Origin: Zygnema cylindricum
Taxonomy: Eukaryota > Streptophyta > Zygnematophyceae > Zygnematales > Zygnemataceae
Length of the DNA: 64,000 nucleotides
Assembly: GCA_037447655.1 (NCBI GenBank)
Contig: JBBHKE010000697.1
Location: forward strand, 217,224-281,223
Direction: 5' to 3'
Positions 1-64,000 of this stretch are shown in pieces; the stretch's first letter is position 1, and each line of letters starts with the position of its first letter. The notes below the pieces were generated by a model. The model saw nothing but the letters and a program-made list of their open reading frames with translations, was not told where the DNA came from and searched no databases. Made by a program: the position numbers and the translations under genes.

Positions 1-7963
<7,963 letters not shown>

Positions 7964-19700: not shown

Positions 19701-22700
19701 GAAATTCCTTCCCTGATTAGACCTTTTTGCTGACACATGACGCTCTTCCAGACTGGAATAGGAAGAACAGTGTCATGACTCCCTAATAAGGAAAAATACA
19801 TACAACATAGACTGTTGTATGTGGATGTTGTTCTGATAGCTGTCAGAGCTCATTTAACATACCTTGAGGACAGCAACTTCATCTTCAAGCATAGCAACCT
19901 TCTCCAGTGCCATCCTCAGTTCACTTTGGGACTCCTCAAAAGCCACTTTGCTCTCTTGTAGCTCCTGCTGAAGCTGTAAACCGACATGAAAGGCTAACTT
20001 CAAACGCTTGTTTTTACAGAAACAAACACCAGAAAAACAAGACAAAAGCAGTTGCCGGCTGCATTCCCCTAAGATGATGCCCTGCATCCTAATAGGATGA
20101 TGACAGGTTATGCAGAAAATTCGATTATCTATGCTTTCAATAGATATTTCTAATAATATTTCGGCATAATATTTTCTCACCTCATTGCGCTCCTCGTAGG
20201 AAGCTCTTGACTGAGTCTTCAGCTCATCCGCCAAATCATCCAGCTGACGCTCCATAAAAGACTTTTCGAGGTCCAAGGATCGAATCTGTAAAGAGGACAA
20301 AAATATTCATGAAAATCAATCTTCACTGAACCACGCTAATTATGACCCACTGCAAACCGCTTTTGGAGAGGTGGTGTCCTCACAGGACAGATTGATAAGG
20401 AGAAGACACATTGCTTGAAGAGAATAAAAGAAAAAAGAAACAAAGAGCATAGAATTTTACACCTTTCTTCTCTAAATCCATGCCATACGAGTCATTATGG
20501 TAAAACAGCAAACCTGGGCCCGAAGATCGTCGATAGTGGATTCCTTGCTGTCAAGACTTCTTGCCCTCCTGTCAGAAATATAAAGCTCTAACTCCTCATT
20601 TCCATCTGTGACATCTCCCTCCTCCTGTAGGGAACTCAACCGTCCATTTCTTTTTTCCTGATTCTGCAGAGTTTTAAAAAGGAACAGATATAGAAACTAT
20701 AAGACATAGAGAGTGTAAAGAGGAATTTTTGCAAAAAAAATTAGAAACAAAGAGACAGGCAACTTGAGATGGCCCGTTGCCATGTTCTTAAGAATTTCCT
20801 TTGTCATTCAAGGTTTTTGCTACACGTGGGAACCTCACCACAAATGGGAATTTGCAACTTTCACTGACTCTGAAACAATTCCATGATGACACATATTCGA
20901 AACAAATATTCATTTTTTTCTGGTTACCATGTCGTCCATGTCTTTACAGTGAAAAGAAAAAATGCAACATCAACATTGCAAAGTGGCAAACATCCTGGTA
21001 CACTGTTTCAAACACCTTGACTTTAAGAAAGAAAAATGATTTTTCAAAGACCTCGAGGCCACCAACTAATAATGTATAAGGGACTGCTAAGGGACTGCTA
21101 AAATGTTTTCCACGCGAATCTTTACCATACTGCAATTCACAAGTCATCAACTTACCAAACCGGATGTTAAAGGTCTTGGATTCTCCTTCCGTGTTCCGTG
21201 TCCCGTTGAGGTGTTACTTGGAAAGGGTTTAGGAATTTTAACAGGTGACTCCGACTTTCTTGCCACACTGGAGGTGCTGGAGACCCATTGACGGGCTCTC
21301 GACCGTCCCCCTATTGTGAAGGCAGCTGAACTCTTGGTGACTGGAGATCCAAATGTAGATGGAGAGGAGTCACTTCCTGGAGAAGCTTCGTTCTCACTCT
21401 TTTCTGCCACTCTTGTGAAGGGAGGGACAAACGGCGCTGGTCGAGAACCTCCTCTCGGCGGAAGAAGAGCTTCAGAATTGCAATTCGGTCCGCCGGAGAC
21501 CTACAACGCAACAGTAACAAGTTCAGGATGTGAACGTGACTCTTCGTAGCATCGTGCACATTTCTTGACTGAAAGAGCATTATACAGAAGATGAAAAAAG
21601 AGAAGAAGAAGAAGAAGAAGAAGGAGAAAGCTTACCCCGTTTGGAGGTGCCAGCTGCACAACACGAGGTGGACACCATGTTTGTCGACGATTGCCCTGAA
21701 CAGTTCAAATAAGCATTAATTAAGATTGGTCCAACAGTCAAAGGAATCTCTCAAGAATTATCCCGATAGCAGCAAACCCATCAGATACGTGGAAAGGCAT
21801 GTACACCTTCTTGTCTCCGAGATTCCTGTCATCGACCGCGGAGTTGATCATCTTTATACTCAAATTTGCTATCCTTTGCTCCTGTTCCTTCATTCGTTGC
21901 TCGTGTACCGCTTTCTCTTCTTGAAGTTCAATGATCATTCTCTCCCTCTCAAGTTCCGTCTGAAGGAACAAAACAATACGCATTAATCAGATGAAGGAGG
22001 GACCAAGAAGAGGTGATTCTCTATGCACTCATAAAACAGAACAAACATCCTTCAGATAACTAGTTTCTACAAAATATGAGAAGCTCACCTGCAATAGAGC
22101 GTTTCGAAGATTAAGAACTTCTTCTTCCAAATGGGGCGAGTGATTCTCCTGCAATATGTCAGATAGAGATGTTAGTCGATGGACATTCTCCACTACCCAA
22201 ATAGACTATCGTGTGAACAAAAGTCAACCAAAAAGGCATTATATCTATCAATGAACAATCATTATTCATCTTGAGCACACGGATACGGAATTCTTGTATC
22301 TGTGATTATCAATGCACTTGTTAAAGTGAAGCGAAGTTCACCTGAAGCTTTGCACGGAGCTCCTCAATTTCCTTCTTTTGTCTCTTGAGTAGGGCTTCAT
22401 CCGTCACGATCTGCAAAAGTACCATGATTTTTTTAGAGCTTCTCGGTCAAAGAGGATGAGCAAATAGTATGAAAACAATAGGAATGTATCCCGAGACAGA
22501 ATGGCAAATGTGTGAGTAACATATTTACCTCATTAACTTGAGCACAATTAGTCACCCGTTTGGCACGAGTTGCAAACAACAGCGTACCCTTCGTCTCATC
22601 TGCGTGCATCTGTGGAAAAAAACCATACACAACAAGAAATTAAGTGTTTTATAATTTACCGCCTCTTTAAAATTTCCTCAGCAAGAAAAACAACATTGGA

Positions 22701-25689
22701 GCAGCAAATCCACATGAACATACACCTAGCAAAAGAATATGGACCATGATCGGATGAGAGTGTAGCTTCCTCACTTCCAGCAACAGGGGAGTATTCTTCA
22801 AGTCGATAAAACAAAGATGTTTATGTCATTAAGGGTGGATGTTCGACGAAACAAGTAAAGAACAAATTCTAGCACAAAAACTTACCGCTGCAGGTGTCAC
22901 GCAACAGATAATCGCTGTCTTCGCATTTCCTCCAAGAGATGGTTGTAAGATGCGAGTTAGTTTGCTGTCACGGTATGGTACATGACCCCTGCATAAAAAG
23001 TTGCAAACAGTCCTTTTCTCATTATGTCCACAGGTAGCTATCGTTCAAAACCAGAAACCAACTTCAGAGTGATCAAAACCTCGTCAAAATAAGGGTGCTG
23101 GAAGTTTCTAATAAAAATAAATGTTTCACAAGTGGAAGACTCACCCTGTCCTTTCGACTCCATCGGCAAGCTTGTTGATCACAGTCCCTAGGGTCATGAG
23201 GCTCTTGTTTATGTGACCACCTTCCTTGAGACGAACTCCCTCAGCCCCTGTCTTTCCAACTCGTTCAGAGCCAGCTAAGTCTACCAAATTCTGCACAATG
23301 TTTAATTGAAATTAGTTGAACTCCTCACTTCTTGTGGTTAACTTGCAACACACATCCGAAGGAGATCTGACAGTCTGGACTGGAAAAAAGAACAATTTCA
23401 GACAGATCGGTTTGAACCGGTACAAACTGCAAAAATCATGCCATCAAGACAACTTATGAACAACTTTGGCTAGATAGTAGAGAATCTGGAAATCTTACCA
23501 ATGTTGAAACTCTAACTGCATCCAAATTGTCGTTGCCGGTTACACTTTTCTCTCTGCTTTCTATAACCTGTTATATGTCACAAGGAACACATTAAAACGC
23601 CATGTCAACAACGGCTGCAAAAATTTGACTGCCATTCACTATAAATAGGCAGCCTTTTAACCGCGTCATGTGGTAAAACTCTCTAAACATGATAATGTTT
23701 TTATACATACCATTCGGAAAATCGTATGCGATCGTGAACTGTAAATGTTCATATTTGTTTCCCCCACATGGCGTTTCTCTGGTCACAACAGGTGCAAGAT
23801 GGTGTTAGACTATCCGTTTTGAATGCCAATTCTAAGTACTCTAGATTAGTATCTCTAGACAGAAACATGACATGAAGATTCCAGGTGGACTTTGACCCTT
23901 AACTGCAAAACTAGAAAGCTATTTCTGACACGAGTTTGTCGAACAGGTATATGCAGATGTTATTTGTATATCGGAGCTCACCTTGTCCTGCATCAAGCAT
24001 TTGTAAAACTTGGTCTGGGTTTACCACAATTTCCTCTCGTAGACCAGCGACAAAAATGGCTCTCTGTTTCAACGTACATCAACAACGAGAAACCACATTC
24101 AACAATTCACAATAAACAGAAGGGGAATCACACTTGCTGATTAAGAATCCAAGAAATCACGATCTGGCTGAGCATGGACCAAGGCAAAAGAGAAAAATCA
24201 AATGCACACCTCTGCACTTTCATGAACTTGTAACTTGCGATTTTCTGGAGCCAGGAGATCATTAATTTCTTCATTGTAGATTTCCATATAAGAAACCCGC
24301 AGAAGAAACTCTCGATCTGTTGCCTGCAAAACATGAAAAAAATCATTATTAACATGAGCACATCCCCTCTAGTTAGCAGGCAAACAATTTTGAACATGGG
24401 CAAATGAATTTTGAGCGTGAACAAAAAACATCATTGTTTTCCACAAATTAACCCCCGGTTGTCAAGTGATAGTGCATACGTTATTCTCCACAAATAGTGA
24501 ACCCACCTAAACTACAAGACAGGAATAGGAGCAACAAACCTGCCCAATCCGGTTGAAGACATCATAAATGGCCAGTGGTGTAATTCCTGGATGTTGCGGT
24601 GAACCTCGCATGCTAAATGTTTTTCCACTGCAACTCAATAGCGAAGTATTTTCATCAATAGCATGGAGAACGAAGGGGGTGTTCCTATTTCTGAAGTCAT
24701 GCATACATAACACTCACAGGGACACGATTTCAAAACTTGATTGCAGCACCATTTTACAAACACTGGGATGCAACATAGGTGTATAAGGTTCAGTTACCCA
24801 CCTGCTTGTCTGGCCATAAGCAAAAACTGTGCCTGCATCAAGAATCATAAGCATCCCAAACAGTTGTTTTCTCAGTTTAGAATCTGATGAATCTATTTTT
24901 ACCACATACCCCACCTAAACAATTTCTTGTGCACAAAATTGCGCGGTCAATATGTGAACAATCAGGATGGATATTATTTTTATTTAAGCCATAATTGAAG
25001 ATGGTTGATAATGCCTGGCATTCCTCTAGGAGTTGAGTCTCATATGGGTGATAGCTGATGGTCAATTTCGGTTCAATAAAAAAGCCAAGTGTACTAAGGA
25101 ACAATTTTTTTCCATGTGTACAAGTGCATGTTTTACAAAATTTGATGATGAATTTCTACAAGTAGCTAATCCAGGCAGAAAAATTGAAGTACAGGATATA
25201 TTCTTTTAGGTGAGTACATAGAATACAGCCACACAGCACGAGAATTTCGTTTGGTGGGCTATGCTCACCGTTGAAACCATCTACAGTCGAGCATATGATT
25301 TCTTTTGTGTGGGCTTCATAAACTTCTATGGTTGACGCTTGTGGTGCAAATACATTATCTGGAAGCATTACAAACAGTCAGACTTGAAAGAACGGCACAC
25401 CAGAAAAAAAAAAAAAAAGCTTTTCCATTCTGTTCTGGTATCGAACAGCTGGAATTTTGAGTGAAAATTAGGGCAACAAAAATGATCACTAAGGAACCAA
25501 TCTCCCTCTGAGTCTGTCCGTACATCAAGTAATCGAGCACATACCGAACGAAAATGATTGGCCAGAAACCGGAATTCCAGATTGGGAACAGAGAGTTATT
25601 GTGTTCGACTCCAACTTCCAGGGACTCGGAGGAACCAACTCATTTTTTGCCAGAGGCCTGATCCTAACAGAAACTGAAATCGTTTCCAT
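10773..25689 (-). CDS. CENP-E-like kinesin-7, large multi-exon
   Basis: A plus-end-directed microtubule motor with a very long rod. At least 35 exons give about 2,100 residues: motor 1-339, then nearly continuous Glu/Lys/Leu/Gln-rich coiled coil, then a basic tail ending NKENV. Start is the in-frame ATG at 25689 ([13 protein letters not shown]), matching kinesin-7 N-termini; no earlier in-frame ATG is near. Exons after the motor: 22342-22410, 22089-22148, 21807-21959, 21636-21695, 21156-21500, 20514-20663, 20181-20285, 19863-19973, 17263-19287, 16978-17064, 16471-16680, 16104-16322, 15770-15988, 15505-15594, 14882-15061, 14328-14447, 14001-14107, 13676-13787, 13215-13361, 12759-12808, 12040-about 12205, 11864-11932, 11563-11727, 10773-11114. 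Phase closes everywhere except 12759 to about 12205, where a micro-exon may be missing. A role in spindle or phragmoplast function is inferred from the family. Confidence 0.92.
17263..19287 (-). other. 2,025-nt single coiled-coil exon of the kinesin
   Basis: One uninterrupted exon encodes 675 residues (about 691-1365) of the rod, whereas all other exons are 31-345 nt. It opens with a CGGC-containing segment and is then heptad-rich, with repeated LEEER, LKQQLE and LQE blocks. The donor is GAAAAA/GTATGT and the acceptor TATGCAG/GAAC. Confidence 0.9.
21601..21623. repeat. (GAA)n microsatellite in a kinesin intron
   Basis: Seven to eight GAA units, inside the intron between exons 21636-21695 and 21156-21500. 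Confidence 0.9.
22529..25689 (-). other. Kinesin motor domain, 11 exons
   Basis: Exons: 25545-25689, 25269-25358, 24802-24832, 24540-24627, 24210-24323, 23982-24063, 23711-23778, 23499-23567, 23145-23290, 22886-22988, 22529-22609. Nucleotide-binding motifs are intact. The P-loop GQTSSGKT falls at residues 85-92 and is interrupted by an intron after its serine. Switch [12 protein letters not shown] is at about 192-202, and switch [14 protein letters not shown] at about 230-241. [23 protein letters not shown] and the neck-proximal [10 protein letters not shown] follow. The 31-bp third exon is very small. No motif is lost, so the motor should be active. Confidence 0.93.
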
Positions 25690-47700: not shown

Positions 47701-48189
47701 CGGCAATCTTTTGCCGCGACTCACAAGTCACACGCGTCTGGGGAAAGCGGGGAAAGCGGGCACAAATCAGGAAGGCAATAAAAGGTGCCGCCGGTCAACG
47801 GACAAACGGAAGAGAAAACTGTCAAATTGGGCAAATTATCCCTTGGGTGCAAAACGCAACAAGCGACCGCAGTTTCTTAAGTGCGGAAAGTGCGGCAGAC
47901 CGTATCCATATTATACGGGGTTTTTACTCAGTGGAGCTCGACTTAATGTTTTTGAAAAAATGCCCGTTTTGCACTTTCGATAATTTCGAAGAGCGAATCC
48001 TGACCGCCAGTTGAAAGCGTCACAATTTTGAATTTTACACATCGTATGACGTCACAGTGAATCGTAGCCATACACGTTTCAGCGAACACCATGAAAGTGG
48101 CACCTGGAACCGTGTATCGTAATTTAGCGTTAAAGTTTTATTAGCGAGAGGGGTTTATAATGTCTATAATTTTATATTAGTGCCACAGT

Positions 48190-48482
48190 TCAAAAGTAGG
48201 TGAAAGTAGGCCCATACAATATGCCTATTGTATGCAAAACATACAATATGACCTTAAGTCCCATATTGTATTTGGACCTATTCGGACCAATTAAAACATT
48301 CGGACCAAAAATTGGACCAATTAAAACATTCGGACCAAAAAAAATATTTACACCGTCAGATTTCTGACGATCGGACGGTCGCTGATCAAAGTAGCGATCA
48401 AAGAAGATCACATGAAAGCCCATAACACAGCTTACGATAAAGGCGCCGACCAAACACCTACCATAAAAACGCCTACTTTTGA
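48190..48482. mobile_element. Small TIR element with internal direct repeats
   Basis: TIRs TCAAAAGTAGG...CCTACTTTTGA bound 293 bp. Inside are repeated ATTCGGACCAATTAAAAC-like units (48276-48342) and a short inverted pair TACAATATG/CATATTGTA. The TSD is not clear, so the superfamily is unassigned. Confidence 0.55.
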
Positions 48483-48504
48483 GCCATGATTAGTGCAGTT
48501 ATAA

Positions 48505-49234
48505 GGGCGAAGTTCCATTAGGACATTCTGTAATTGTACGGCCAACATTGCAGAATGCTACAATTTGAACGAAGTTCCATTGCTCGGAGTTCTGTAATCC
48601 ACGTGTTCATAATTTAGTGGTACCACATGAGCTAAGGTCGGATGTTAAAAATCGTCAATGATTTTCACACCGACCAAAAATCATCATTTGCGTACCATGT
48701 ACGTGCGTAATAGGTCATCGTTCAACACAACTTTTGTACTCTTTGCAGACGCCTTGTCAGATACCACCTCAATTTTTGTAGGGTTCCGGTTTTTTCGCGT
48801 GACGAATGAGCGCTGCCATAAATAGTGTGACGAATGGGCGCTAGCAGAAATAGCGTGACGAAAGTGCGTTACGACATTTCGTTTGTATTCTTTGTTGGAT
48901 TTTTTAATGCGTATATCTTATGCGATTTTTTTTTTATTTCAGTTGGTTGTCTTATTGACATTTGTTCTCATTATCCAACGTGTCGTGGCTTAAAAAAACG
49001 TGTAATTGGTGATGTACCTCGCGAGGTACATCACCAATTACATAAACTTTTGAAGCGAGTGCTTCGCGAAAAAATATCCAACGGCCATTTTTAACTCCCA
49101 AACTTTTGGAGAATATTGGCAGTATTCTCTGTAATGTTGTTTTCATCATAAAAACAAAATAGAGGTACTACGTAGTACGGAGAGGTCCGAATTTATGTAA
49201 ACAACCTCACTTTTGGTCAAATGGAACTTCACCC
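48505..49234. mobile_element. PIF/Harbinger-like non-autonomous element 1, TSD TAA
   Basis: Ends GGGCGAAGTTCCATT...AATGGAACTTCACCC (15-bp TIR, one mismatch), flanked by TAA at 48502-48504 and 49235-49237. A 3-bp TWA TSD and GGG-starting TIRs are PIF/Harbinger traits. 730 bp, no transposase. It contains a perfect 42-bp palindrome. Confidence 0.8.
49001..49042. repeat. Perfect 42-bp palindrome
   Basis: TGTAATTGGTGATGTACCTC is followed by its exact reverse complement around a central GC (CTCGCGAG). All 21 base pairs match with no loop, so it can extrude as a cruciform or hairpin. Confidence 0.97.
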
Positions 49235-49364
49235 TAATTCCCTAATTCTGTAAAGAGTGACTGGCTGGTTTTTAACCATTTATACTAATAACGTCAATAA
49301 AAATTAGTGTCACATTATTTTATTTCGAATGATAAAATTGGAGGGCACCGATCATTAAAACATA

Positions 49365-50470
49365 CACGGTGTGCTTTTTTATGTACGGATGAAGCGTCAT
49401 AGCTCATAATTTAAATAGTGTGCAGTAATCAAAACCTCATGTGGTCAGTTCCTTGTGTACCCCTATTAGTGTAGATATAGTTTTAAATTGTTAATCCGGC
49501 TGTTTCAATCAAAAACTAAGATTCTCACCTTCCGATTGGCGGTTTACAATTGACAATCGGACATGTGTGCACGGGGAAAAAAAACGTTTTTTTTCACTTA
49601 GGGTGGCTTTCCATAAGGGAAAAAGTGGGGTTTTTTACTAACGACCGTACCATTTCGTATAGGTCCGTACAATTTTTTTTTTCTTATATAAAAATGTCCA
49701 AGGTTGTAGGCGTAAATTCGAACCGTCAGATGTCGTTACACTTTTTATCCGAGACGCCACGTCACCAACCCTACATTTTGTTAAGACCGTGCACAGGGAG
49801 GACAATTCTCAAAGACAGAACGAGTAAATATGGACCACGTGGAAAAGGAAAAAAAATCCACGATGAGCGCGCGCGTATGTGCGTACACGTCGCAAGGGCC
49901 ACGTGCCTTCCGCCAGGGTGGTTGCGAATCCGCTGAAATAATCCCGTCACGCTCCCACCATCAAAGTTTACCGCAACAATTTTGTCGTTGTGTTTTAAAA
50001 TTTTGGGTAGTACATTTAATGCCCTCTGTATGAGTCATTAATTACCTCGTCTGGTACAAATATATCTTCCGCTCGTACAGATATTTCCTACGCTGGTATA
50101 GATATTACCTCGGTTCATACAGATATTGCGTTCAGACTTTGCATTCTAAGATTCTAACAAGATTTTAAGCACCTAATATTAGCCTACGTGTTACCAACCA
50201 TAATGAGCCACACAAATAAAAAATGGTTTACTGACGCGACCTAATGGAAGGCACGCCCCTTCAATAAAATTTTCCGTACAAATGTTGAGACGCCTAATGG
50301 AAGTCCACCCTTAAGACATTTATTTTATATCCAAGAATGTTAGTGTGCACTAAAAAAAGATGTGTTGAGTGGCGAATAAAACATTAACACTAGGGACACA
50401 CGGGTACTTTCTTACACATTATTTAAAATTTGTATTGTGACGCTTCATCCGTACAATACAGTACACCGTG
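49365..50470. mobile_element. TA-flanked mariner-like MITE split by a nested Harbinger element
   Basis: Outer ends CACGGTGTGC...GTACACCGTG are flanked by TA (49363-49364, 50471-50472). Inverted arms of about 60 bp share GTACGGATGAAGCGTCA and TTTAAATA. Removing the nested 49601-50310 insert leaves about 400 bp. Confidence 0.75.
49601..50310. mobile_element. PIF/Harbinger-like non-autonomous element 2, TSD TTA
   Basis: Ends GGGTGGCTTTCCATA...TAATGGAAGTCCACCC with TTA on both flanks (49598-49600, 50311-50313). 710 bp. The TIR resembles element 1 (GGGYGRMKTTCCAT). Inserted inside the TA-flanked element, so it is the younger of the two. Confidence 0.8.
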
Positions 50471-50549
50471 TACGTTTTTACCGTCATAGACAGTTAGAGA
50501 TATTATCGCTCTTCAACTTTACTACTAGAATCTTCGGGAGCACTAACGC

Positions 50550-51071
50550 TACAGATCACCACAAATCGTAATTAGAGTTATGTACGCTAATTCCGTCATC
50601 CCAAAATTTGACTCTATCACTATAAATAGAGTACATTATTATAAATTATTATTCACGTTATTTAAGGTACTCTTTGAATGAGCGTCAATAACTCTATTAC
50701 AGTGCCATTTTAAATGGTGTGGCGTACGGTCGGTGTCTGACCGTGCAAAATCGTACTTTAGTAAGTAAAAATGTACAAATAATGATTTAGTGCAGACCGT
50801 TTTCATTTAACTGCGTTGTAACGAACCGCGTAATGCAAACGTCATAATGACGTGAAACTGTACGTTTTGTGAGATTTTGTACTTGCACTTAATATACAGT
50901 GGATATTTTCAGCGCCCAAATTTACACCCAAATTAGAGTTATTGATATACTAGGGTAAAATTCCTTTTTGAAAAAGTTATATCACACAAATTAGAGTTCA
51001 TAACTCTAATTATTATTTTTTATTTTTTCTCTACTTTTGTCTTTACTCTAATTACGATTCGCGGTGTAATA
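50550..51071. mobile_element. Diverged relative of the TA-flanked MITE family
   Basis: The left end, CACCACAAATCGTAATTAGAG then TTATGTACGC and CCCAAAATTTGAC, aligns with MITE copy A (CACCGTGAATCGTTATTAG, TTATGTACTC, CCCAAAATTTTGAC). The right end, CTAATTACGATTCGCGGTG, mirrors it. Overlaps the foldback at 50787-51465, so the interior is rearranged. Confidence 0.5.
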
Positions 51072-51465
51072 GTAACTCGTAATAAGAGTAAAAAAAAAAT
51101 TAGAGTAAAAAAAGAAAAAGAAAACATTAGAGTTATGAACTCTAATTTGTGTGATATAACTTTTTCAAAAAGGAATTTTACTCTAATTTATCAATATCTC
51201 TAATTTGGGCGTAAATTTGGGCGCTGAATATATCCACTGTAAATTAAGTGCAAGTACAAGTGCAAGTACAGAATCTGACAAAACGGAATCTGACAAAACA
51301 TACAGTTTCACGTCATTATGACATTTGCATTACGCGGTTCGTTAAAACGCAGTTACATGAAAACTGACAAAACAGAATCTGACAAAACATACAGTTTCAC
51401 GTCATTATGACATTTGCATTACGCGGTTCGTTAAAACGCAGTTATATGAAAACGGCCTGCACTAA
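50787..51465. repeat. Long foldback (about 245-bp arms) with an 89-bp tandem duplication
   Basis: Starts TTAGTGCAGACCGTTTTCAT and ends ATGAAAACGGCCTGCACTAA. The arms run inward through the CGCGTAATGCAAA block, a TTTTTGAAAAAGTTATATCA block and AGAGTTCATAACTCTAAT. In the right arm, about 51272-51360 is repeated as 51361-51449. RNA from this locus would form a very long hairpin. Confidence 0.85.
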
Positions 51466-52288
51466 GGGCGTGTTCCCATGTGTTCAAGTAAGGGTTTTTT
51501 TCCGTCGTTATCACAGAAAATGGGACTTCCAACGAGAAAATATTACGCCGTACGAAAAATGGGCAAAAACACAAGTACATTTTGCGTCATCTTGGAACTT
51601 GGAAGGTACGGCAATTTGGCGTTATTATCATCACGACCCACTTCCAGCTCATCTTCACACTTGCACTGGAATCAGATCGCGATCTGATTTTAGTCAAAAT
51701 ACTACCCCATTGACGAATGGAAAACCTGGATTGCACGCGCCAACGTTTTCAACTTTTTTTTTGCGGTTGGGAGAGTACACTAAAAAAAAGGTGTTTGTCC
51801 GTTTGCTTATGTTGTCCACTTGTGGGCGTCTACAAATGTCATTTTGTAGACGTAGGCGATCGCTTATGTCGTTCACGTGTGGGCTTCAACAAATGACAGT
51901 TGGCGTCGACAATTGTCCCAGTATGTCAGGAGCTTTTTGCGGCGTACAAATGTCCGCAGTTTGTTCCGAGATCGTTGGCGTCTACAAATGTCAGCAGTTT
52001 GGGTTTCGCAAGTATTGGCGACGTGTACAGCTGCCACATATTCAAAATAATGAAGGCATAAAAAGACACTTAACATTATTGCACACACATGTGAATGTTC
52101 ATTGGAAGAAAGAGACGCAAACTCGTCGACAAAAATCACGTTCTCATATGTTCGTCCGTCGACCGTGTGAACAACACGACGGCGTAAAAATTGTCAGATT
52201 TTGTACGGGTACACATATAACTGTAGACATCGAAAGGGCGGGTATTTATTATTCAGGACAACCCAAATTACAATTAGGGATTAATTAG
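51407..52288 (+). CDS. 293-codon open reading frame, unrecognised
   Basis: The longest uncalled open frame in the window. It begins in the right arm of the foldback and continues through unique DNA. The product would be rich in Arg, Cys, His, Phe and Thr, with several CGLQM/VYKC-like blocks from a degenerate repeat (CGTCTACAAATGTC at 51830-52000). No fold, signal or zinc-finger spacing is convincing. It could be a transposon-derived gene or a chance frame in less AT-rich DNA; I favour the latter slightly. Confidence 0.25.
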   Translation: MTFALRGSLKRSYMKTACTKGVFPCVQVRVFFRRYHRKWDFQRENITPYEKWAKTQVHFASSWNLEGTAIWRYYHHDPLPAHLHTCTGIRSRSDFSQNTTPLTNGKPGLHAPTFSTFFLRLGEYTKKKVFVRLLMLSTCGRLQMSFCRRRRSLMSFTCGLQQMTVGVDNCPSMSGAFCGVQMSAVCSEIVGVYKCQQFGFRKYWRRVQLPHIQNNEGIKRHLTLLHTHVNVHWKKETQTRRQKSRSHMFVRRPCEQHDGVKIVRFCTGTHITVDIERAGIYYSGQPKLQLGIN

Positions 52289-52384
52289 TATAAATATATT
52301 TAAAAAAACAAAAAAAAATCCCGATAAGTGTTAATAACACTACTTTTTTTTTCGCTATTTATTCCTTTACTCTAATAGCGGCGA

Positions 52385-53265
52385 ACATTTACGGTAACAA
52401 AATTGCGGCAACCACATGTAAATAAAAGTGTCGCAGACAATCACTTTTTGTCGTTACGTGAGCTCCACAGTGAGAGCACTTAGCCGCAAAATTGAAATTT
52501 AATCGTTTAAACTTTACATAGAACTTATACGCAAAGTGAAACAAAACCTCTTTAAACTGAATTACCATAAATCTAGTACGAAAATATTAAAACGCACGAA
52601 ACAAAATAAACTTTGTATACTATAATAAAACGAACCGGCGTAAAGATAACAATTGAAATTAAATGAATAAAACGCGTGTCGTCAGGCGCGACGAAATTGA
52701 GCCACACTATCTACGAATAACCATTCTTACATTGACAGCGAAAGGTTAGGATATCGTGCGAATCGACGTCAGCCAAATCGCGCTGTTAAATGTGTTATTC
52801 GGTTCGCGTCAGTTATGTTTTGTTTCGTTCAATACAGTACTGTACTTTTGTGTCGGTTCGGTTTGGTACAAGCGATATTCATTTGTACGAATTGCACGTC
52901 GGTCGATTTCGAAGAAATGTTGCAGCTAAAAGTACTCTCACCGTGGGGCTCACGTAACGACAAAAAGTGACTGTCTGCAACAGTTTTATTTACATGTGGA
53001 TGCCGCAGTTTCCTTACCGTAAAAGTTCCCGGCTGTGTGAATTGCTAATTTTTTTATGACGGTCGACGTTCGCACGCACGACAAAATTTTAAGTGGTTGA
53101 CACAATATTTTGAAAGTCAACGTTGTCCAATTGATTAACCGTCAAATTTGTACCCAACGGTGCCTTATTTGTACTTATGTGTACTTCAAACGTACATATT
53201 TTGACAAAATGACGTAAGTGACTGTGCGCAACCAAAAAAGTCACTGTCATGAACAATTCCCTATT
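52385..53265. mobile_element. Diverged Mutator-like foldback, member 0 (left arm truncated)
   Basis: The 52385-52495 arm (GGTAACAAAATTGCGGCAAC, CACTTTTTGTCGTTACGTGAG) is inverted at 52918-53030. The sequence continues 53040-53265 as a diverged version of the arm of the members below (TTATGACGGTCGACGTT, GTGTACTTCAAACGTACA) and ends CAATTCCC. Its outer left end is missing. Confidence 0.6.
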
Positions 53266-54181
53266 ATATACTTTGACGAATACGGAATACGAAATCCACA
53301 GTAGAGTACAGTATCTGTTCGGTAATAGTTCAGTACTGTACAATGTTGGCACCTTTAGATTACTCCACATAAATCTAAGCCACGTACGCATTTCAGAATA
53401 TTATGAATAGGGAATTGCTAATCGCAGAGACGATTTTTGCTGCGCGCAGGTAGTTGTCAGAAATTGAACGTTTAAAGTACAGTTTTGTACAAGTGACGTA
53501 CCTTTAACTTTGACTGGCGGAATATTGTACCGGCGGTTAAAAAAGTGTCGCGCTTGCAAACGTCGACCGTCATAAAAAAAAAAAACAATTCACACGGCCG
53601 GCGCAGGTTTACTACTTTACTGTAACCAAACTGCGGCAACCACATATAAATAAAATGGCTGCGCGCAGGTAGTTTACCGCAAAATGAAATCAAACTCGCG
53701 AACCGTTACATTGAACTTGGACACATATTAAAGGACGACATACAACATGTGTAAACTCGCACGAAACGAAATAAACTTCGTACAAAATAAAAAAGCGTAC
53801 CCGCGTATAAATATCGATGAAACTAAAATGACACGTCGTCACGTCCACGGTGGACGTGACGACGAGTTGATTTCATTTTTGCGGCTAACGTGAAGTGATA
53901 AACTACCTGCGCGCAGCCATTTTATTTATATGTGGCTGCCACAGTTTGGTTACAGTAAACCTGCGCCGGCCGTGTGAATTGTTTTTTTTTTTATGACGGT
54001 CGACGTTTGCAAGCGCGACACTTTTTTAACCGCTGGTACAATATTCCGCCAGTCAAAGTTGTTTGACGGATTGACCGTCAGATCTGAACTTAAAGGTACG
54101 TAGCTTGTACGAGACTGTACTTCAAATGTACAATTTCTGACAACTACCTGCGCGCAGCAAAAATCGTCTCTGCGATTAGCA
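52886..54181. repeat. 1.3-kb duplicated segment, copy 1
   Basis: Nearly identical to 55650-56943 (offset 2,764 bp, shrinking by 2 through small indels). Both start TACGAATTGCACGTCGGTCG and end TCTCTGCGATTAGCA. It includes the right arm of foldback member 0, about 140 bp of spacer, and a whole foldback member. Confidence 0.95.
53410..54181. mobile_element. Mutator-like foldback, member 1 (right end truncated)
   Basis: Starts GGGAATTGCTAATCGC after TTATGAATA; inverted arms of roughly 300 bp. A 31-bp near-palindrome lies at the centre (53834-53864, CGTCGTCACGTCCAC and its complement around one G). The right end stops at GCGATTAGCA, lacking the final TTCCC and the TSD seen in member 2. Confidence 0.85.
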
Positions 54182-55649
54182 CCTATTTATTTTCTCAAAA
54201 TGCCATGGTGCCCAGGAAACAAAAGCAAAATCAAAAAAGCAAAATGCTTGTCGATTTTCCAAAAAATATAAAGACGTTTAGATTCAATATCACTTCAACG
54301 AGGTGGCTTATTCCGAAACACATGGAAAAAAATATTAGCCTTCACAGTTTGAAGTTACACTAAATGGATGTGAAAACTTCTTTTATGTATGGAAATATAG
54401 AAGAGGTTATGTATGTGAAGCAGCCAAAGATGTACGAGGAAGCAAGAAATCCTTGTATGGACTAAAACAAGCCTCTAAACACTAGAATCTAAACCAACCA
54501 AGGTTTACTTGATATACTCCCTTCATTCACACCTGCATCAAAGGTAGCAAACGATGGAAACGATAAAATGGTTAAAGTTAAAATTGCTCTCACATCGTGT
54601 TGGAAAAGTTTTCCATGACAATATACACTGCATTTGTAATCGACATGATTGTTCCTCGACTTGCCCACTCTAGTACACCTTGAATCGTTATTAGCGTATA
54701 GAAATTATTTGTGTAAAGAAAAAATTAGCGTCATTCATTCTAATTTAGTGCCAGGAGACGTGGCATATTATGGTTTTCTTCCTTAAATAGAGTAATTTAT
54801 TATATTTAAGGTATCAATGTCAAAATTTTGGGGTGCCGACATAGCGTACATAAGGCTAATAACGATTCACGGTGTAGTAGTTAAGTTGAGGATGGGAAGA
54901 ATAATCAGAGGGAAGAACCTCGAGAAGCTCGGATCGAATGGTAGAGAAAACCTCATCAAAGATTAATGCTTCCACACGTCTAACAGGCTTTCTAATAAGG
55001 GAGAAGAAAATAGACTCCCTCCCTCGCTCCCTCTCTCCCTGCCTCACTCCCTCCCTCCCTCCCTCCCCTCCCTCCACCAAAATCCAAATTGTTCCTTGAT
55101 TATGAAATTTTAGCCCCAAAAGAGAAAAACATCTACGCCGAAAAAATTGAGTCTCAGAAAATCTAAATTCAGAAAACATTTTGAGGCTCAGAAAAACACT
55201 TCGAAGGACAGAAAAATATTTCAAGGTTAGCAATTTTTCTTCGGAGGCTCGAAAATAGATATGAAAAAATATTCCGCGGTTTCTACGCTTTCAGTCCACA
55301 AGTACGAAGAAGTTAAACAAAATACATAAAATGAACTGAAAAGACTATAAAAAGAAAAGTTTTAAGAACATTTCACAAAATTAACAAACAAATTTTCATA
55401 AACCGACACAGTTTCACACCTACACCGAAGACAAAAATTGAAGGATTTATCCTTTTTTCAATTTACAAAACAATTTCCTCGTTTATCAACTGTCAAAAAC
55501 TCAAATATATCATAAAACACAAACAGAGAAATGTGAACCTCGAAACCAACTCTCGTTTTATTCATAAATCTCAACAACCTTCCACATAATAATAGGTATA
55601 TTACATTCTTCTTTTTTCTTTCCCTGGGATTTACACCCGATATCATATT
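54182..55649. other. Spacer between the two duplicated segments
   Basis: AT-rich. It holds MITE copy B and a (CCCT)n tract at 55014-55078. No gene recognised. Confidence 0.6.
54673..54877 (-). mobile_element. MITE copy B, inverted relative to copy A
   Basis: About 205 bp, TA on both sides, ends GTACACCTTGAATCG...CGATTCACGGTGTAG. Reverse complement of most of 8142-8350, with only scattered differences. Same family, no coding capacity. Confidence 0.85.
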
Positions 55650-56943
55650 TACGAATTGCACGTCGGTCGATTTCGAAGAAATGTTGCAGCTAAAAGTACT
55701 CTCACCGTGGGGCTCACGTAACGACAAAAAGTGACTGTCTGCAACAGTTTTATTTACATGTGGATGCCGCAGTTTCCTTACCGTAAAAGTTCCCGGCTGT
55801 GTGAATTGCTAATTTTTTTATGACGGTCGACGTTCGCACGCACGACAAAATTTTAAGTGGTTGACACAATATTTTGAAAGTCAACGTTGTCCAATTGATT
55901 AACCGTCAAATTTGTACCCAACGGTGCCTTATTTGTACTTATGTGTACTTCAAACGTACATATTTTGACAAAATGACGTAAGTGACTGTGCGCAACCAAA
56001 AAAGTCACTGTCATGAACAATTCCCTATTATATACTTTGACGAATACGGAATACGAAATCCACAGTAGAGTACAGTATCTGTTCGGTAATAGTTCAGTAC
56101 TGTACAATGTTGGCACCTTTAGATTACTCCACATAAATCTAAGCCACGTACGCATTTCAGAATATTATGAATAGGGAATTGCTAATCGCAGAGACGATTT
56201 TTGCTGCGCGCAGGTAGTTGTCAGAAATTGAACGTTTAAAGTACAGTTTTGTACAAGTGACGTACCTTTAACTTTGACTGGCGAAATATTGTACCGGCGG
56301 TTAAAAAAGTGTCGCGCTTGCAAACGTCGACCGTCATAAAAAAAAAAAACATTTCACACGGCCGGCGCAGGTTTACTACTTTACTGTAACCAAACTGCGG
56401 CAACCACATATAAATAAAATGGCTGCGCGCAGGTAGTTTACCGCAAAATGAAATCAAACTCGCGAACCGTTACATTGAACTTGGACACATATTAAAGGAC
56501 AACGTACAACATGTGTAAACTCGCACGAAACGAAATAAACTTCGTACAAAATAAAAAAGCTTACCCGCGTATAAATATCGATGAAACTAAATGACACGTC
56601 GTCACGTCCACGGTGGACGTGACGACGAGTTGATTTCATTTTTGCGGCTAACGTGAAGTGATAAACTACCTGCGCGCAGCCATTTTATTTATATGTGGCT
56701 GCCGCAGTTTGGTTACAGTAAACCTGCGCCGGCCGTGTGAATTGTTTTTTTTTTTATGACGGTCGACGTTTGCAAGCGCGACATTTTTTTAACCGCCGGT
56801 ACAATATTCCGCCAGCTAAAGTTGTTTGACGGATTGACCGTCAGATCTGAACTTAAAGGTACGTCACTTGTACAAAATTGTACTTCAAATGTACAAATTC
56901 TGACAACTATCTGCGCGCAGCAAAAATCGTCTCTGCGATTAGC
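55650..56943. repeat. 1.3-kb duplicated segment, copy 2
   Basis: Near-identical partner of 52886-54181. In this copy homology stops inside a foldback whose true right end and TSD are preserved, so this copy looks ancestral. Confidence 0.95.
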
Positions 56944-56950
56944 AATTCCC
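56174..56950. mobile_element. Mutator-like foldback, member 2, perfect 9-bp TSD
   Basis: A 777-bp element, GGGAATTGCTAATCGC...GCGATTAGCAATTCCC, flanked by the identical 9-mer TTATGAATA at 56165-56173 and 56951-56959. Long TIRs with a 9-bp TSD are typical of Mutator-like (MULE) elements. The inverted arms fill almost the whole element. No transposase. Confidence 0.9.
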
Positions 56951-56959
56951 TTATGAATA

Positions 56960-59456
<2,497 letters not shown>

Positions 59457-60346
59457 TTGATTCTTGCCGGCTCACTTTTTATCCAGCTCCTAGGTCATAC
59501 TACCCAGTCTGAGCTTACAGTTTCATCTGGCTCGAGATCTGGTAGTAGCACCACCTATGGATCTACATCATCTGTCTCTTCGTCCAAAACCCACAGTTGG
59601 AGGGAAGTCTCGGACATAGACTCCATTGATTTTCAAGATCTAAATCTACCGCCTTCGCGTTTTTCGTTGGGCGGGACCATACACGCTAACTCCGGTCCCT
59701 TTTTCTTGGACATGGCCTCGTCCATAGACTCTGGAGGAGGTGAAAATCAGTTTTGCTTTGCGGGGATCAATGACACTATGTCCTTGTCACACTTTCGCAT
59801 GTTTTTGTATACCGAGATGCGCGACCTCGCATTCCGGTTTCAAGACCGTTATGATTTACAGGTGGCTTTTTCGTTACTTTTGCGATACCTTAGGGGATCT
59901 GCCCTATCTCTATATACACGGAAATATGTGGCAATTTGTGATATGACCGAAATGGCACCCGCGTATTCTAGATCCTCACCCATAACTAGCAGCCCATAAA
60001 TTCTTTTCCAAGCCGCGGTACCCGCAATGTATGACTCTGCAGGTAAAGAAATTTCACCTGAAATACATGAGGTCCAGCTGGGGCAGCAATCCCAGCTCGC
60101 TCTGCAATGCTGGTTCCTATAAGGGATCCGGTGTCGTTTGTCTTCAGTTTACTACAAGAAGAGTACCGAATGTAGAATCTCGATCAGGTCAAAGAACTAA
60201 TGAATTTTGAAGGGCGACTAGACAAAACCGCCCCGACATTGCGAGCACGTATGGAAACATTACGTGAAGCACTGCTTGACCTCATGCTAGACGCAGAAGA
60301 CGCGGAGGCAGTTCAAAAATTTGTGGTGCAATTTCCCACCCAATCT
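59457..60346 (+). pseudogene. Retrotransposon gag-like segment, broken
   Basis: The open frame at 59457-59999 begins with a Ser/Gly/Thr-rich stretch. Further on it has FRMFLYTEMRDLAFRFQDRY and FSLLLRYLRGSALSLYTRK, which fits the retrotransposon gag fold (the L-x-G-x-A-x-x-x-Y pattern). After stops, a second piece at about 60189-60346 (LRARMETLREALLDLMLDAE) looks like the C-terminal half of gag. Frame changes show it is not functional. Confidence 0.6.
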
Positions 60347-60367
60347 TGACGTTTCATTCAAAGCCAT

Positions 60368-60700
60368 TTGACTGAGGCATATGGCCTCAAATTTACTTTC
60401 GAGCAGGCTGCAAAGTATGCTGTATGGTATGAAATAAAGACCAGCCGGTGGGACGCTCATAAGCGACCTAAATCTTCTCTTAATAAAAACCCGAATCCTA
60501 ATCCTAATCCACGCAACTCATGGCCCAATCCAAGACCTCTAAGGGCTCTTGCCATGGGAACATTACCAAGAAACCCTGGTGTTCGTACATGCTTCTGATG
60601 TGGTAACACTGGTCACGACGCACGCAGCTGTATGGATAAGACCGCCACGTGTATTCATTGTATTCAACAGGTCATTATGTACATCGATGTCACATAAAAA
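60368..60700 (+). pseudogene. Nucleocapsid region with two decayed zinc knuckles
   Basis: A linker with (NP)n repeats leads to a CX2CX4HX4C knuckle at 60590-60631 in which the residue before the second Cys is replaced by an in-frame TGA (60596-60598). A second knuckle at about 60653-60695 is split by a one-base frame offset. Two knuckles after a basic linker are normal for plant gag. Confidence 0.65.
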
Positions 60701-60836
60701 TTCCCGATTTCAGTTATCAAAATCAAATCAAAAACGGTGGTATACCTACTTGCTCGGCAAAATTGGTCACTCCACCCAAAGGGGTAAAGGAAGACAACCC
60801 TCCAAAAATCAGTAGAAAGACAGAGAGAAAACCGAG

Positions 60837-61757
60837 ATGCAGGCTACCGCGGCGTCCATGATGAAGGAGCAGTTTGCCGCGCTTATGGCACAGGTCAAAC
60901 CGCAATTAACTGGAATGGCTCGAACTGTGGTCCATATGCCCTCTTTTGCTGGGCGATCTCTTCGCGAGTTCATTGTTCAACAGCGGACAGCTCAGTTTAA
61001 AGGGACTCCCGATCATAATCGCAAGTCAAAATCCATTAACACGCGTATCCCACTATCATTTGCTAAAGAACCCAGCTCCCCTATTCTAGAAACAACCTCA
61101 AGCATCACCGCTGAAGCATTAACAATTTTAGAGAGGAGCATACAAGACACCTATAAGGTCAAATAACGTTTGTCCATCCTGTCCACCATGCTTCCTGAGT
61201 TGGATAGCAATGAAAAAATCGTAGATCTAACTCCTTCAGCAGTTGCGTTACAAGCATTACAAAACCATCGTAATTCACTCTCCCTTCAAGCTATTACTCT
61301 TGAAGAGCACTCTAGCCTCACTCCTCACATCAATTTTCTAGATAACAAATTGGGCGTGTTCATAGTTAATGGGTTTGCCATAGCACTTCCTCTCATGGAT
61401 ATAGTTGTAAAGCCACTTATCCTTAGTTCCGAGTTTGACATCGAAATAGGTCTTATAGCTGATAAGCTACAACCCACTCCCACACGTCTATTGACTTCCG
61501 GAGGTACCACAGAGCTAGTCCTCGGTATTACGATAGAACCAATCTGTTTTCAGTTTCGGACTCAATCAGTGACCAATTTCGCAGAAAAATATGCTCACGC
61601 CTTGGTCACCAAGTGTAGTGACTATGAATGCTTGGTCGGTCAAGACGTTATTTTCCGAGTTGGGGGGGGGGGGGTTGATATGCATGATCAAACATTTTCG
61701 TACAGACTAAACAACTTTCCGCAACGTAAAATTTGCTTACCCCTTATCTCGGCCTGA
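60837..61757 (+). pseudogene. Retropepsin-like domain, catalytic aspartate lost
   Basis: Two consecutive frames (60837-61166, 61170-61757). The second has the spacing of a retrotransposon aspartic protease: a flap-like PTPTRLLTSGGTTELVLGIT and a terminal CLVGQDVIF (the usual L-[IL]-G-x-D). At the catalytic position (about 61365-61376) the D-[ST/G]-G motif reads V-N-G-F, so the aspartate is gone. A 12-G run at 61663-61674 is a likely slippage site. Confidence 0.6.
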
Positions 61758-61763
61758 CAACCC

Positions 61764-63060
61764 ATGCCTACTACGGCCCATTCAGCGCTGATCTTGCCAA
61801 CATATGCTGTAGTTGGCATAGGTGCAGACATCTTTGAAGCATCTCTAACAGCAGATGAAATCTCACCTGATCCCCCAGGTTTACCAGAATTATTTAGTAC
61901 TCCCGGATTTACCATTGACTTTTCAAATTTTGACCGACTAGACAAATTAACTATACCAATTCCCTTATCTAGTATTCGAGATCCACCCTTTTTTACGATA
62001 GGTCCTTCCGAGTTTGTGCCTATTAAATGGAAACTGGTCAATTTACAACCTCACTCGAATGGTCTCGTTATCTTAGACTTTTTCATAGGAATCGGTACTT
62101 CACTTCTCTCTTGCCTGCGGAACACGCTTCCTATTAAACATTATTATTCGGTAGATATTGATCCCTTGGCAAGGCGCCTTCAGATACATCACTGTCAAAT
62201 ATTGCATGAACAATATCCACACGTTTTACCCAGTCCGCTTTTTACGACATGCATTCGGCTCTTCCACAGGATATTCGCCTAATAAGATCACCATTTCTTG
62301 GAATTAGAACCAATCGATCTCTTTTTGCGGGATTGGAAATGCCAAGGTATGTCCAAAGTCGGGAAAGGTTTAGGTCATATAGATCCCCGTACTAGCTTGT
62401 TCTTGAGGTGGTTCGTCTTATCCACTCCCTCTAAAAACATGACCCTCCTTTTGGATACGTCTTGGAAAACGTTGCAGCTTATAATGACGCGCAACCCACA
62501 GTTCTCGCAGATTACAAATGCATTGAATCATTAAGTGGACCACCAGTGATCATTGATGCCATAAGCCACGGTTCGCTAGCCCATTGCGTTCGTTCTAAAT
62601 GGACTAACCTGGTGGACATAGGCCAAATTCAAGAAGTTAACCTCGTTGTTGAAATTGTATGGGCTCCATTGCCACACAGAATTCGCAGATCAAAAGAAGC
62701 TAATCTAGATAGTACTGACTCCAACTTGATATAAACCCTAATGATTGACCAATTGACAATCATAACCCCATTACAGCTTCACCCTTGTGAAATAAGACTT
62801 TATGTGTGCTCAATTCCACCACAGAATGCAAAGTTAGAATATGAGATTTGGACACATTCACCCACTTTGACTTTCCCTTACAAATGCAGCCACCCAGGCA
62901 GGGAAAGACTCTGACCGACTACACCTCTGTGTAGCTTGGACTCCCCTGAGTTCGGAGCAAAAAGAATCACTGAAAATGGTCTACTGAATTGATAGGTATG
63001 GCTGGCCAAAGTGTGCCATTTATACAAAGTGCTCTCTGGGAGAGGCAGCTACCTACCAGA
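61764..63060 (+). pseudogene. C5 cytosine DNA methyltransferase domain in the retroelement, decayed
   Basis: Motifs appear in canonical order. Motif I is LDFFIGIGTSLL (about 62073-62108). Motif II is YYSVDIDPLARR (about 62143-62180). An ALPQDIRLI helix follows in a shifted frame (about 62252-62285). Motif IV is KCQGMSKVGKGLGHIDPR, with the catalytic Cys at 62340-62342 and the usual Pro before it replaced by Lys. Motif VI is LENVAAYNDAQP (62462-62497). A motif VIII-like HGSLAHCVRSKWTNL lies at about 62567-62611. Motifs I and IV share a frame but are separated by a stop at 62280-62282; motif VI is in another frame. Possible C-terminal remnants (TPLSSEQKESL) run to about 63000. This is not an intact enzyme. 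The normal motif order rules out the rearranged DRM arrangement. Confidence 0.75.
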
Positions 63061-64000
63061 AATATTCTAAGTCCTAAACCCCTCTCTAAACCCTCTAGTT
63101 CTGAGGTACGGACCAATCAAATTACTGTATAGAACATAAAGGTACAGGTGCCGGTGTACCTTTTGTACGGCAATAATACGACATGGCAAAAAACTTAACA
63201 CATGTCTTATCTGGATCCGCTCTTATAATCCCCAGAATTTCTGCTTCCAAATCTTATCCCTCCACGTGGCGCTAGGTCATGCCACGTCAGAAAAACGGTA
63301 CCGTACATAAAGTACAAGTACTGGAGTACTTTCTGTACGGACATTGTACGATGATGTTATAATGTGACATTTGTCACATTTGGATGTGTTATGTTCCTTT
63401 CCAGAGATTTCGCAACCTGTACAATCTCGCCACGTGTCATTCAGAGTGGTGACGTACGCAAACGCCAAAAAACCTGTTCCGCAATCTCGACATTTATCGC
63501 GGCCGTCCGATTTAAACCGGCATTCAATTTTAGCCGTCGAAAATTGGTGCGCAATATTTGTTTCGATAGCGAAACAAATGCGCGGTATCCGTTCCGTCCT
63601 TGTACCATACTCTGTACTAAATTAAATTGTATTTATGTATTAAGTATCTATTTCCCGTTAAACGAATTAATCTACTTGTAACTATTTATATATTTATCGA
63701 ACTCTTTATATTCAACACTAGTTCTAGACTTAACGGTTAAAGCTAACGGCAACGTTGACTTGACCGACGGCAAGTACAAGGATCAATTCCTATGTCTGTC
63801 AAGTACCTTTTGGTTAATCAACCTAATCCACCCCAATCAACCTAATCCACCCTCTGTCTTCTCTAGAGAGTTTAGGTAGCCATGGCTCTAGCTCCCTTTC
63901 CAGCCTTCAGTGACTACAATAAGTGTGGGGGCTTGGTGAGGGGAGTTAGACACAGACCGCCTCAGCTCTTTTTCTATCCTAATACAGACCTAGAAAATCC
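63061..64000. other. Non-coding right flank
   Basis: No reverse transcriptase, RNase H or integrase is visible. Two related palindromic motifs occur at about 63137-63175 (AAAGGTACA...TGTACCTTT) and 63307-63345 (AAAGTACAAG...GAGTACTTT), each followed by TGTACGG. CAACCTAATCCACCC is directly repeated at 63820-63853. Confidence 0.5.

Follow-up and report, generated by a model that had tools for sequence, protein, structure and literature searches.

A Gag, protease and methyltransferase unit on the + strand

The window, by which we mean the whole 64,000-nucleotide stretch of DNA analysed, carries at positions 59712-62713 of its + strand a degenerate coding unit made up of Gag, CCHC knuckles, a retropepsin and a C5 cytosine methyltransferase (DNMT). 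A sequence-only reading of this DNA had placed an element with these parts at 59457-63060; the element is there, but the coding match is narrower. Its parts are listed here with the evidence for each, where P0001-P0004 are four distinct relatives in a protein database, outside the window, counted as four records since their longest contigs differ in length.

59712..60065, + strand: N-terminal Gag-like part; the matched frame has its first ATG at 59712 and the match begins at 59751, 32% identity to P0002 residues 11-114
60089..60589, + strand: Gag-like C-terminal part in a different frame; tblastn match with 33% identity, starting at residue 132 of P0002
60590..60694, + strand: two CCHC-type knuckles; frame readings and alignment to the Cys-rich P0002 residues 306-333, weak zf-CCHC match (E 0.29)
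61263..61754, + strand: retropepsin-like protease; within the tblastn match to P0002 residues 436-973, where P0002 has gag-asp_proteas (PF13975)
62028..62713, + strand: C5 cytosine methyltransferase domain that occupies two frames and runs from motif I to motif VIII; 44% identity to P0001
62061..62099, + strand: motif I, GLVILDFFIGIGT (relatives GYVVLDLFSGIST); sequence and alignment
62142..62165, + strand: motif II-like YYSVDIDP; sequence and alignment
62328..62345, + strand: motif IV RDWKCQ (relatives AGWECQ), catalytic Cys codon at 62340-62342; sequence and alignment
62450..62473, + strand: motif VI FGYVLENV (ENV at 62465-62473); sequence and alignment
62579..62608, + strand: motif VIII-like AHCVRSKWTN (relatives AHRLRAFWTN; DNMT3C/3B AHRARYFWGN); alignment

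The names of motifs I, II, IV, VI and VIII and the catalytic role of the Cys follow general usage for C5 methyltransferases.

With the whole window as the tblastn target, P0002 aligned collinearly with 59751-62713. The Gag matches were 59751-60065 (P0002 residues 11-114) and 60089-60661 (residues 132-333), with a sum E of 6e-29, and the matches running from protease to DNMT were 60948-62402 (residues 436-973) and 62399-62713 (residues 982-1074), with a sum E of 2e-56. Control queries (20 shuffled and one reversed P0002) reached at best 29.6 bits against the same window. Since the match to this unbroken protein is collinear and the controls score far lower, we take the order Gag, knuckle, protease, DNMT to be inherited rather than accidental, and protease followed by methyltransferase to be a trait of the family. 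The comparison establishes, at the level of sequence, the homology and order of all the parts. The Gag-like, knuckle, retropepsin and methyltransferase segments are thus all present in the order and on the strand first proposed, and alignment to the relatives bears out the succession of motifs I, II, IV (with the catalytic Cys kept), VI and VIII, with II and VIII best described as motif-like.

The frame breaks, and the fact that no Pfam match in the window stretch lies above cut-off, might be read to mean that a Gag-protease remnant merely lies next to an unrelated methyltransferase pseudogene. Such a chance juxtaposition is hardly credible: a single unbroken protein aligns collinearly through both protease and DNMT, and it is ruled out by P0002 and P0004, in which the same order occurs without a break.

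Unbroken relatives in the protein database

The database held about 5.8 billion proteins, and the query was the window DNMT domain read across frames, with X at the joints. P0001 (176 aa, carrying PF00145) was the only relative among 230 candidates, at E 3.8e-27 and 44% identity (68/156); the single ORF 61758-62279 gave none among 34 candidates at E 0.01. A search started from P0001, with the permitted lengths widened, yielded P0002 (1279 aa), P0003 (503 aa) and P0004 (565 aa) among 704 candidates. Scans of viral contigs and of genome contigs returned no confirmed locus.

P0002 holds the unbroken version of the unit, one protein with a Gag-like N-terminus, two Cys/His clusters, a protease and a DNMT. 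Pfam places gag-asp_proteas (PF13975, E 1e-6) at its residues 605-700 and DNA_methylase (PF00145, E 4.4e-9) at residues 924-1055; its Gag label comes from position and knuckles, no Pfam capsid family having reached E 1. P0004 has protease and DNMT in one unbroken protein, with gag-asp_proteas and DNA_methylase both above the Pfam cut-offs. P0003 starts with the end of the protease and goes on through the DNMT to what we take to be motifs IX-X, and P0001 consists of the DNMT alone. The sequence-only reading had staked itself on the existence of further copies in which gag or protease adjoins the methyltransferase; they occur in other records, in P0002 and P0004, and in the same order.

Within the DNMT, identity to P0002 is 70% for P0003, 70% for P0004 and 57% for P0001. 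The core of the domain keeps motif I, the catalytic Cys and ENV throughout the family, and motif VIII in the three relatives that reach that far, which suggests selection for activity. Over 131 shared columns the counts for the window copy were 65 with P0001, 61 with each of P0002 and P0004 and 56 with P0003, and P0001 was nearest to it in only 668 of 1000 resamplings. The P0002 cluster has six member sequences with a contig count of 1, figures that do not settle the copy number.

The profile match across motifs I-VIII that the sequence-only reading had asked for was not obtained with the window copy, but the relatives pass the Pfam cut-off. DNA_methylase scores of the relatives were 31.8-37.2 bits against a Pfam cut-off of 22; the window DNMT query reached 13.2 bits (E 0.059), below the cut-off and over query residues 78-125 only. 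Pfam searches with eight separate window ORFs gave neither a DNMT nor a protease match.

Type of methyltransferase

Against solved structures the window DNMT query had no significant match (best 3g7u at E 0.052, then DNMT2 at E 0.59), and two single window ORFs had no match in PDB at E 1. For the family, the best solved-structure matches by sequence were DNMT3C, 3B and 3A (P0003, E 1.7e-5; family profile, E 1.1e-9), followed with the profile by the bacterial enzymes M.HhaI (E 2.2e-6) and M.HaeIII (E 6e-5). Weak matches were seen to 4onj, a chain named DNA methyltransferase (E 0.013), and to DRM2 (E about 0.8), and no DNMT1 appeared among solved-structure matches up to E 1. In a fold search the best 50 of 1274 matches (E 10 or less) were all DNMT3-family structures, on a poor fold model: the AlphaFold model of P0004 has a mean pLDDT of 39 and is fairly confident only in the first part of the DNMT. 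From this similarity in sequence and fold the family enzyme is likely of DNMT3 type; the label is not proven, because phage C5 methyltransferases score equal or higher.

The phage comparison used four enzymes picked from the best 20 of 287 records, and a DNMT3C stretch of 130 residues. P0003 scored 41.6, 31.3, 29.3 and 28.7 bits with the phage enzymes and 27.4 with the DNMT3C stretch, and the family profile gave 42.9-54.9 bits against 35.9 (41.2 for the whole DNMT3C chain). The phage enzymes thus outscore the DNMT3C stretch with both queries, and the family reads CQG at motif IV as the phages do, where DNMT3 has CN; one could accordingly suppose that a phage or bacterial C5 enzyme, and not a host DNMT3 gene, was the source of the captured methyltransferase. 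We think this origin unlikely, though not negligible. Motif VIII of the family, AHRxRxxWxNL, resembles AHRARYFWGNL of DNMT3, whereas one phage enzyme has SRRRLYWTNI, and the comparison is a narrow one of similarity scores for four phage proteins and a single DNMT3 stretch of 130 residues. To return to the DNMT3 assignment, in both sequence and fold the family has its closest solved-structure relative in the eukaryotic DNMT3 catalytic domain, which differs at motif IV (WECQG in the family, SPCND in DNMT3), and the DNMT3 scores are weak (27-41 bits).

Decay of the window copy

The decay of the copy is plain from its letters. The four matched stretches contain nine stop codons between them, of which three fall where frames overlap at 62.28-62.43 kb; 59712..60065 has one in-frame stop and 60089..60589 has two, and the reading frame shifts about five times across the copy. 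The double zinc knuckle of the sequence-only reading is recognisable in both its halves, but the first, CFxCGNTGHDARSC, contains a stop, and the second begins as CIHC and continues as GHYVHRC in a different frame. In the protease the active-site triplet is lost (DTG of the relatives is D-I-V in the window, from 61398 onward) and LVGQDV is retained.

In the methyltransferase the catalytic Cys and ENV survive, as does part of motif VIII. All four relatives agree at 68 DNMT columns; in the window copy 44 of these are kept, 20 are altered and 4 read as gap or X. Another 35 columns are invariant in the three longer relatives, and the copy retains 17 of them. Both counts of kept columns lean high because the frames were picked by eye to match the relatives. 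Motifs IX-X, in the stretch after motif VIII of P0002 and P0003, were not found downstream in the window, P0002 residues 1060-1279 scoring 37 against 62601-64000, a score reached by 16 of 100 shuffles. The CpG observed/expected ratio of the copy is 0.84 against a median of 0.69 in three-kb tiles; CpG is not depleted, so the copy bears no mark of heavy past methylation. Judged from these lesions, the window copy is a pseudogene, a dead remnant that makes no Gag-protease-methyltransferase protein.

A probable retroelement family and the parts not found

We consider it highly probable that what survives here is one degenerate genomic copy from a family of retroelements in which Gag and retropepsin share one frame with a C5 methyltransferase that follows the protease. 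As the sequence-only reading had remarked, no reverse transcriptase is visible: Pfam found neither this domain nor RNase H or integrase in the six frames of 49-64 kb. For the rest of the window Pfam was run on 18-33 kb in the three - frames, on 3-18 kb in one - frame and on ten long ORFs. The integrase and LTR checks that had been proposed alongside were carried out with negative results in that same interval and in the window respectively, with no LTR pair between 56001-59750 and 62600-64000 and the window ending 1.3 kb downstream of the DNMT. Scans of the window with Rfam (at gathering level) and for tRNAs found none.

As no reverse transcriptase, integrase or LTR pair was found, the term retroelement rests on the Gag, the knuckles, the retropepsin and the existence of several divergent relatives. 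Of the Ty3/Gypsy hallmarks, a Gag with CCHC knuckle (the Gag recognised by its match to P0002 and its position) and a retropepsin are present. We do not class the element as Gypsy because reverse transcriptase, RNase H and integrase were not found; the remainder may lie beyond the window.

Two other accounts start from long proteins of this kind that carry no reverse transcriptase. Domesticated Gag and protease genes are known, and a Gag-protease-DNMT protein could likewise serve the cell, with the window holding a pseudogene of it; the contig count of 1 for the P0002 cluster would fit. An element family is the better fit for four divergent relatives that come from four records, though these could be orthologues of one gene, and we judge domestication improbable. 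The second account supposes a split, non-autonomous element, whose Gag-protease-DNMT unit never had a reverse transcriptase of its own and depended on a partner for mobilisation in trans. Pfam finds no reverse transcriptase, RNase H or integrase domain in P0002, which runs to its end, about 230 aa beyond motif VIII, without one, and 49-64 kb of the window has no reverse transcriptase either. P0002 may, however, be a clipped gene model, and the window copy may be truncated, the window stopping so soon after the DNMT; moreover, a published element, KnitGypsy-Dnmt3, is described in the available text of its report as having its DNMT in the Pol ORF (PMC5890265). A split element is a tentative and less likely reading.

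Relation to known elements and proposed function

That retrotransposons of charophyte algae and dinoflagellates can carry cytosine methyltransferases had been pointed out in the sequence-only reading, and the precedent is real (de Mendoza et al. 2018, PMC5890265). In the available part of that paper, KnitGypsy-Dnmt3 belongs to the charophyte Klebsormidium nitens and is an LTR Gypsy retrotransposon with Dnmt3 in its Pol ORF, no introns, conserved key residues, a Gypsy domain composition and DIRS-like repeats, and its DNMT is under purifying selection (Ka/Ks below 0.2). The Symbiodinium SymbioDIRS-Dnmt3 enzymes carried out de novo CG methylation in yeast, and SymbioLINE-Dnmt is a LINE-borne cytosine methyltransferase of the same genus; the K. 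nitens and LINE enzymes showed no activity in yeast, a result considered inconclusive by the authors, who proposed methylation of cDNA, escape from recognition or slowed transposition (PMC5890265). A 2025 survey, in its available part, again names streptophytes and dinoflagellates, giving LTR Copia and DIRS in place of the Gypsy named in 2018 (PMC12344493). A 2019 opinion paper states that land plants such as tracheophytes have no transposon-encoded DNA methylases (PMC6338049, available part), and the available part of a plant DNMT3 paper makes no mention of transposon-borne enzymes (PMC6453930). Among the matches listed, judged by titles and the starts of abstracts, no paper announces a Gag-protease-DNMT element.

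Retroelement-borne DNMTs are as a kind known since 2018, and the window element is another member; a land plant as host would make it a more novel case. It shares with KnitGypsy-Dnmt3, as described, a C5 methyltransferase (of Dnmt3 type there) within a retroelement polyprotein, and differs in that the enzyme sits in a Pol ORF there and after Gag-protease here, with no reverse transcriptase, integrase or repeats seen. P0001-P0004 could be KnitGypsy-Dnmt3 itself, and the K. nitens element may share the Gag-protease-DNMT order. SymbioDIRS-Dnmt3 and SymbioLINE-Dnmt are likewise retrotransposon-borne cytosine methyltransferases, but on DIRS and LINE backbones, for which the available text describes no retropepsin-type Gag-protease unit.

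In the unbroken relatives a single polypeptide unites Gag and protease with a DNA methyltransferase. In working members the enzyme would be made as part of a Gag(-Pol) polyprotein, packed with Gag into the particle and freed by the protease, after which it might methylate de novo the cytosines of the new cDNA or of the integration site. An incoming copy methylated in this way could resemble host heterochromatin or be shielded from surveillance. A bolder version, which we regard as doubtful, would have a lineage outside the published hosts keep the methyltransferase with Gag and protease as their structural partner, in a frame separate from the reverse transcriptase and in many copies per particle, acting on cDNA before integration, in effect a self-methylating particle. 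If the hosts do differ, retroelement capture of epigenetic enzymes extends past the single published charophyte element, and P0002 (1279 aa) offers a concrete protein with which to ask about travel in particles and methylation of cDNA.

Other features of the window

Two intron-containing host genes lie on the - strand. At about 22436-24632 there are kinesin motor exons (pieces at E 3e-14 and 5e-34), and we infer that the 703-aa ORF at 17185-19296 encodes the coiled coil of this kinesin gene. A second DNMT-like match, at 16725-16489 on the - strand (E 0.003), falls among coiled-coil exons assigned to the same gene and is probably due to chance; as a yardstick for it, one shuffled P0002 control reached E 0.033. 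The other gene, at about 3011-4248, has a Chromo domain (E 4.5e-10) and SNF2 exons below cut-off, one of which has CHD4 as its nearest relative among solved structures; by these domain matches it is a CHD3/Mi-2-type remodeller. The two genes show that the host is a eukaryote and, set beside plant PICKLE and plant kinesins, make it probably a streptophyte.

Several repeats were also noted. Just upstream of the element, at 58466-58671, is a perfect dinucleotide run, (AT)103. A short dispersed repeat probably accounts for an inverted pair of 205 bp (8145-8349 and 54672-54876; 95% identical, 46 kb apart). Direct copies of 1.3 kb at 52867-54181 and 55632-56944, 98% identical, 1.45 kb apart and with internal inverted repeats, look like another mobile element, and the tiles around them, from 48001 to 57000, have CpG observed/expected ratios of 1.31-1.65.
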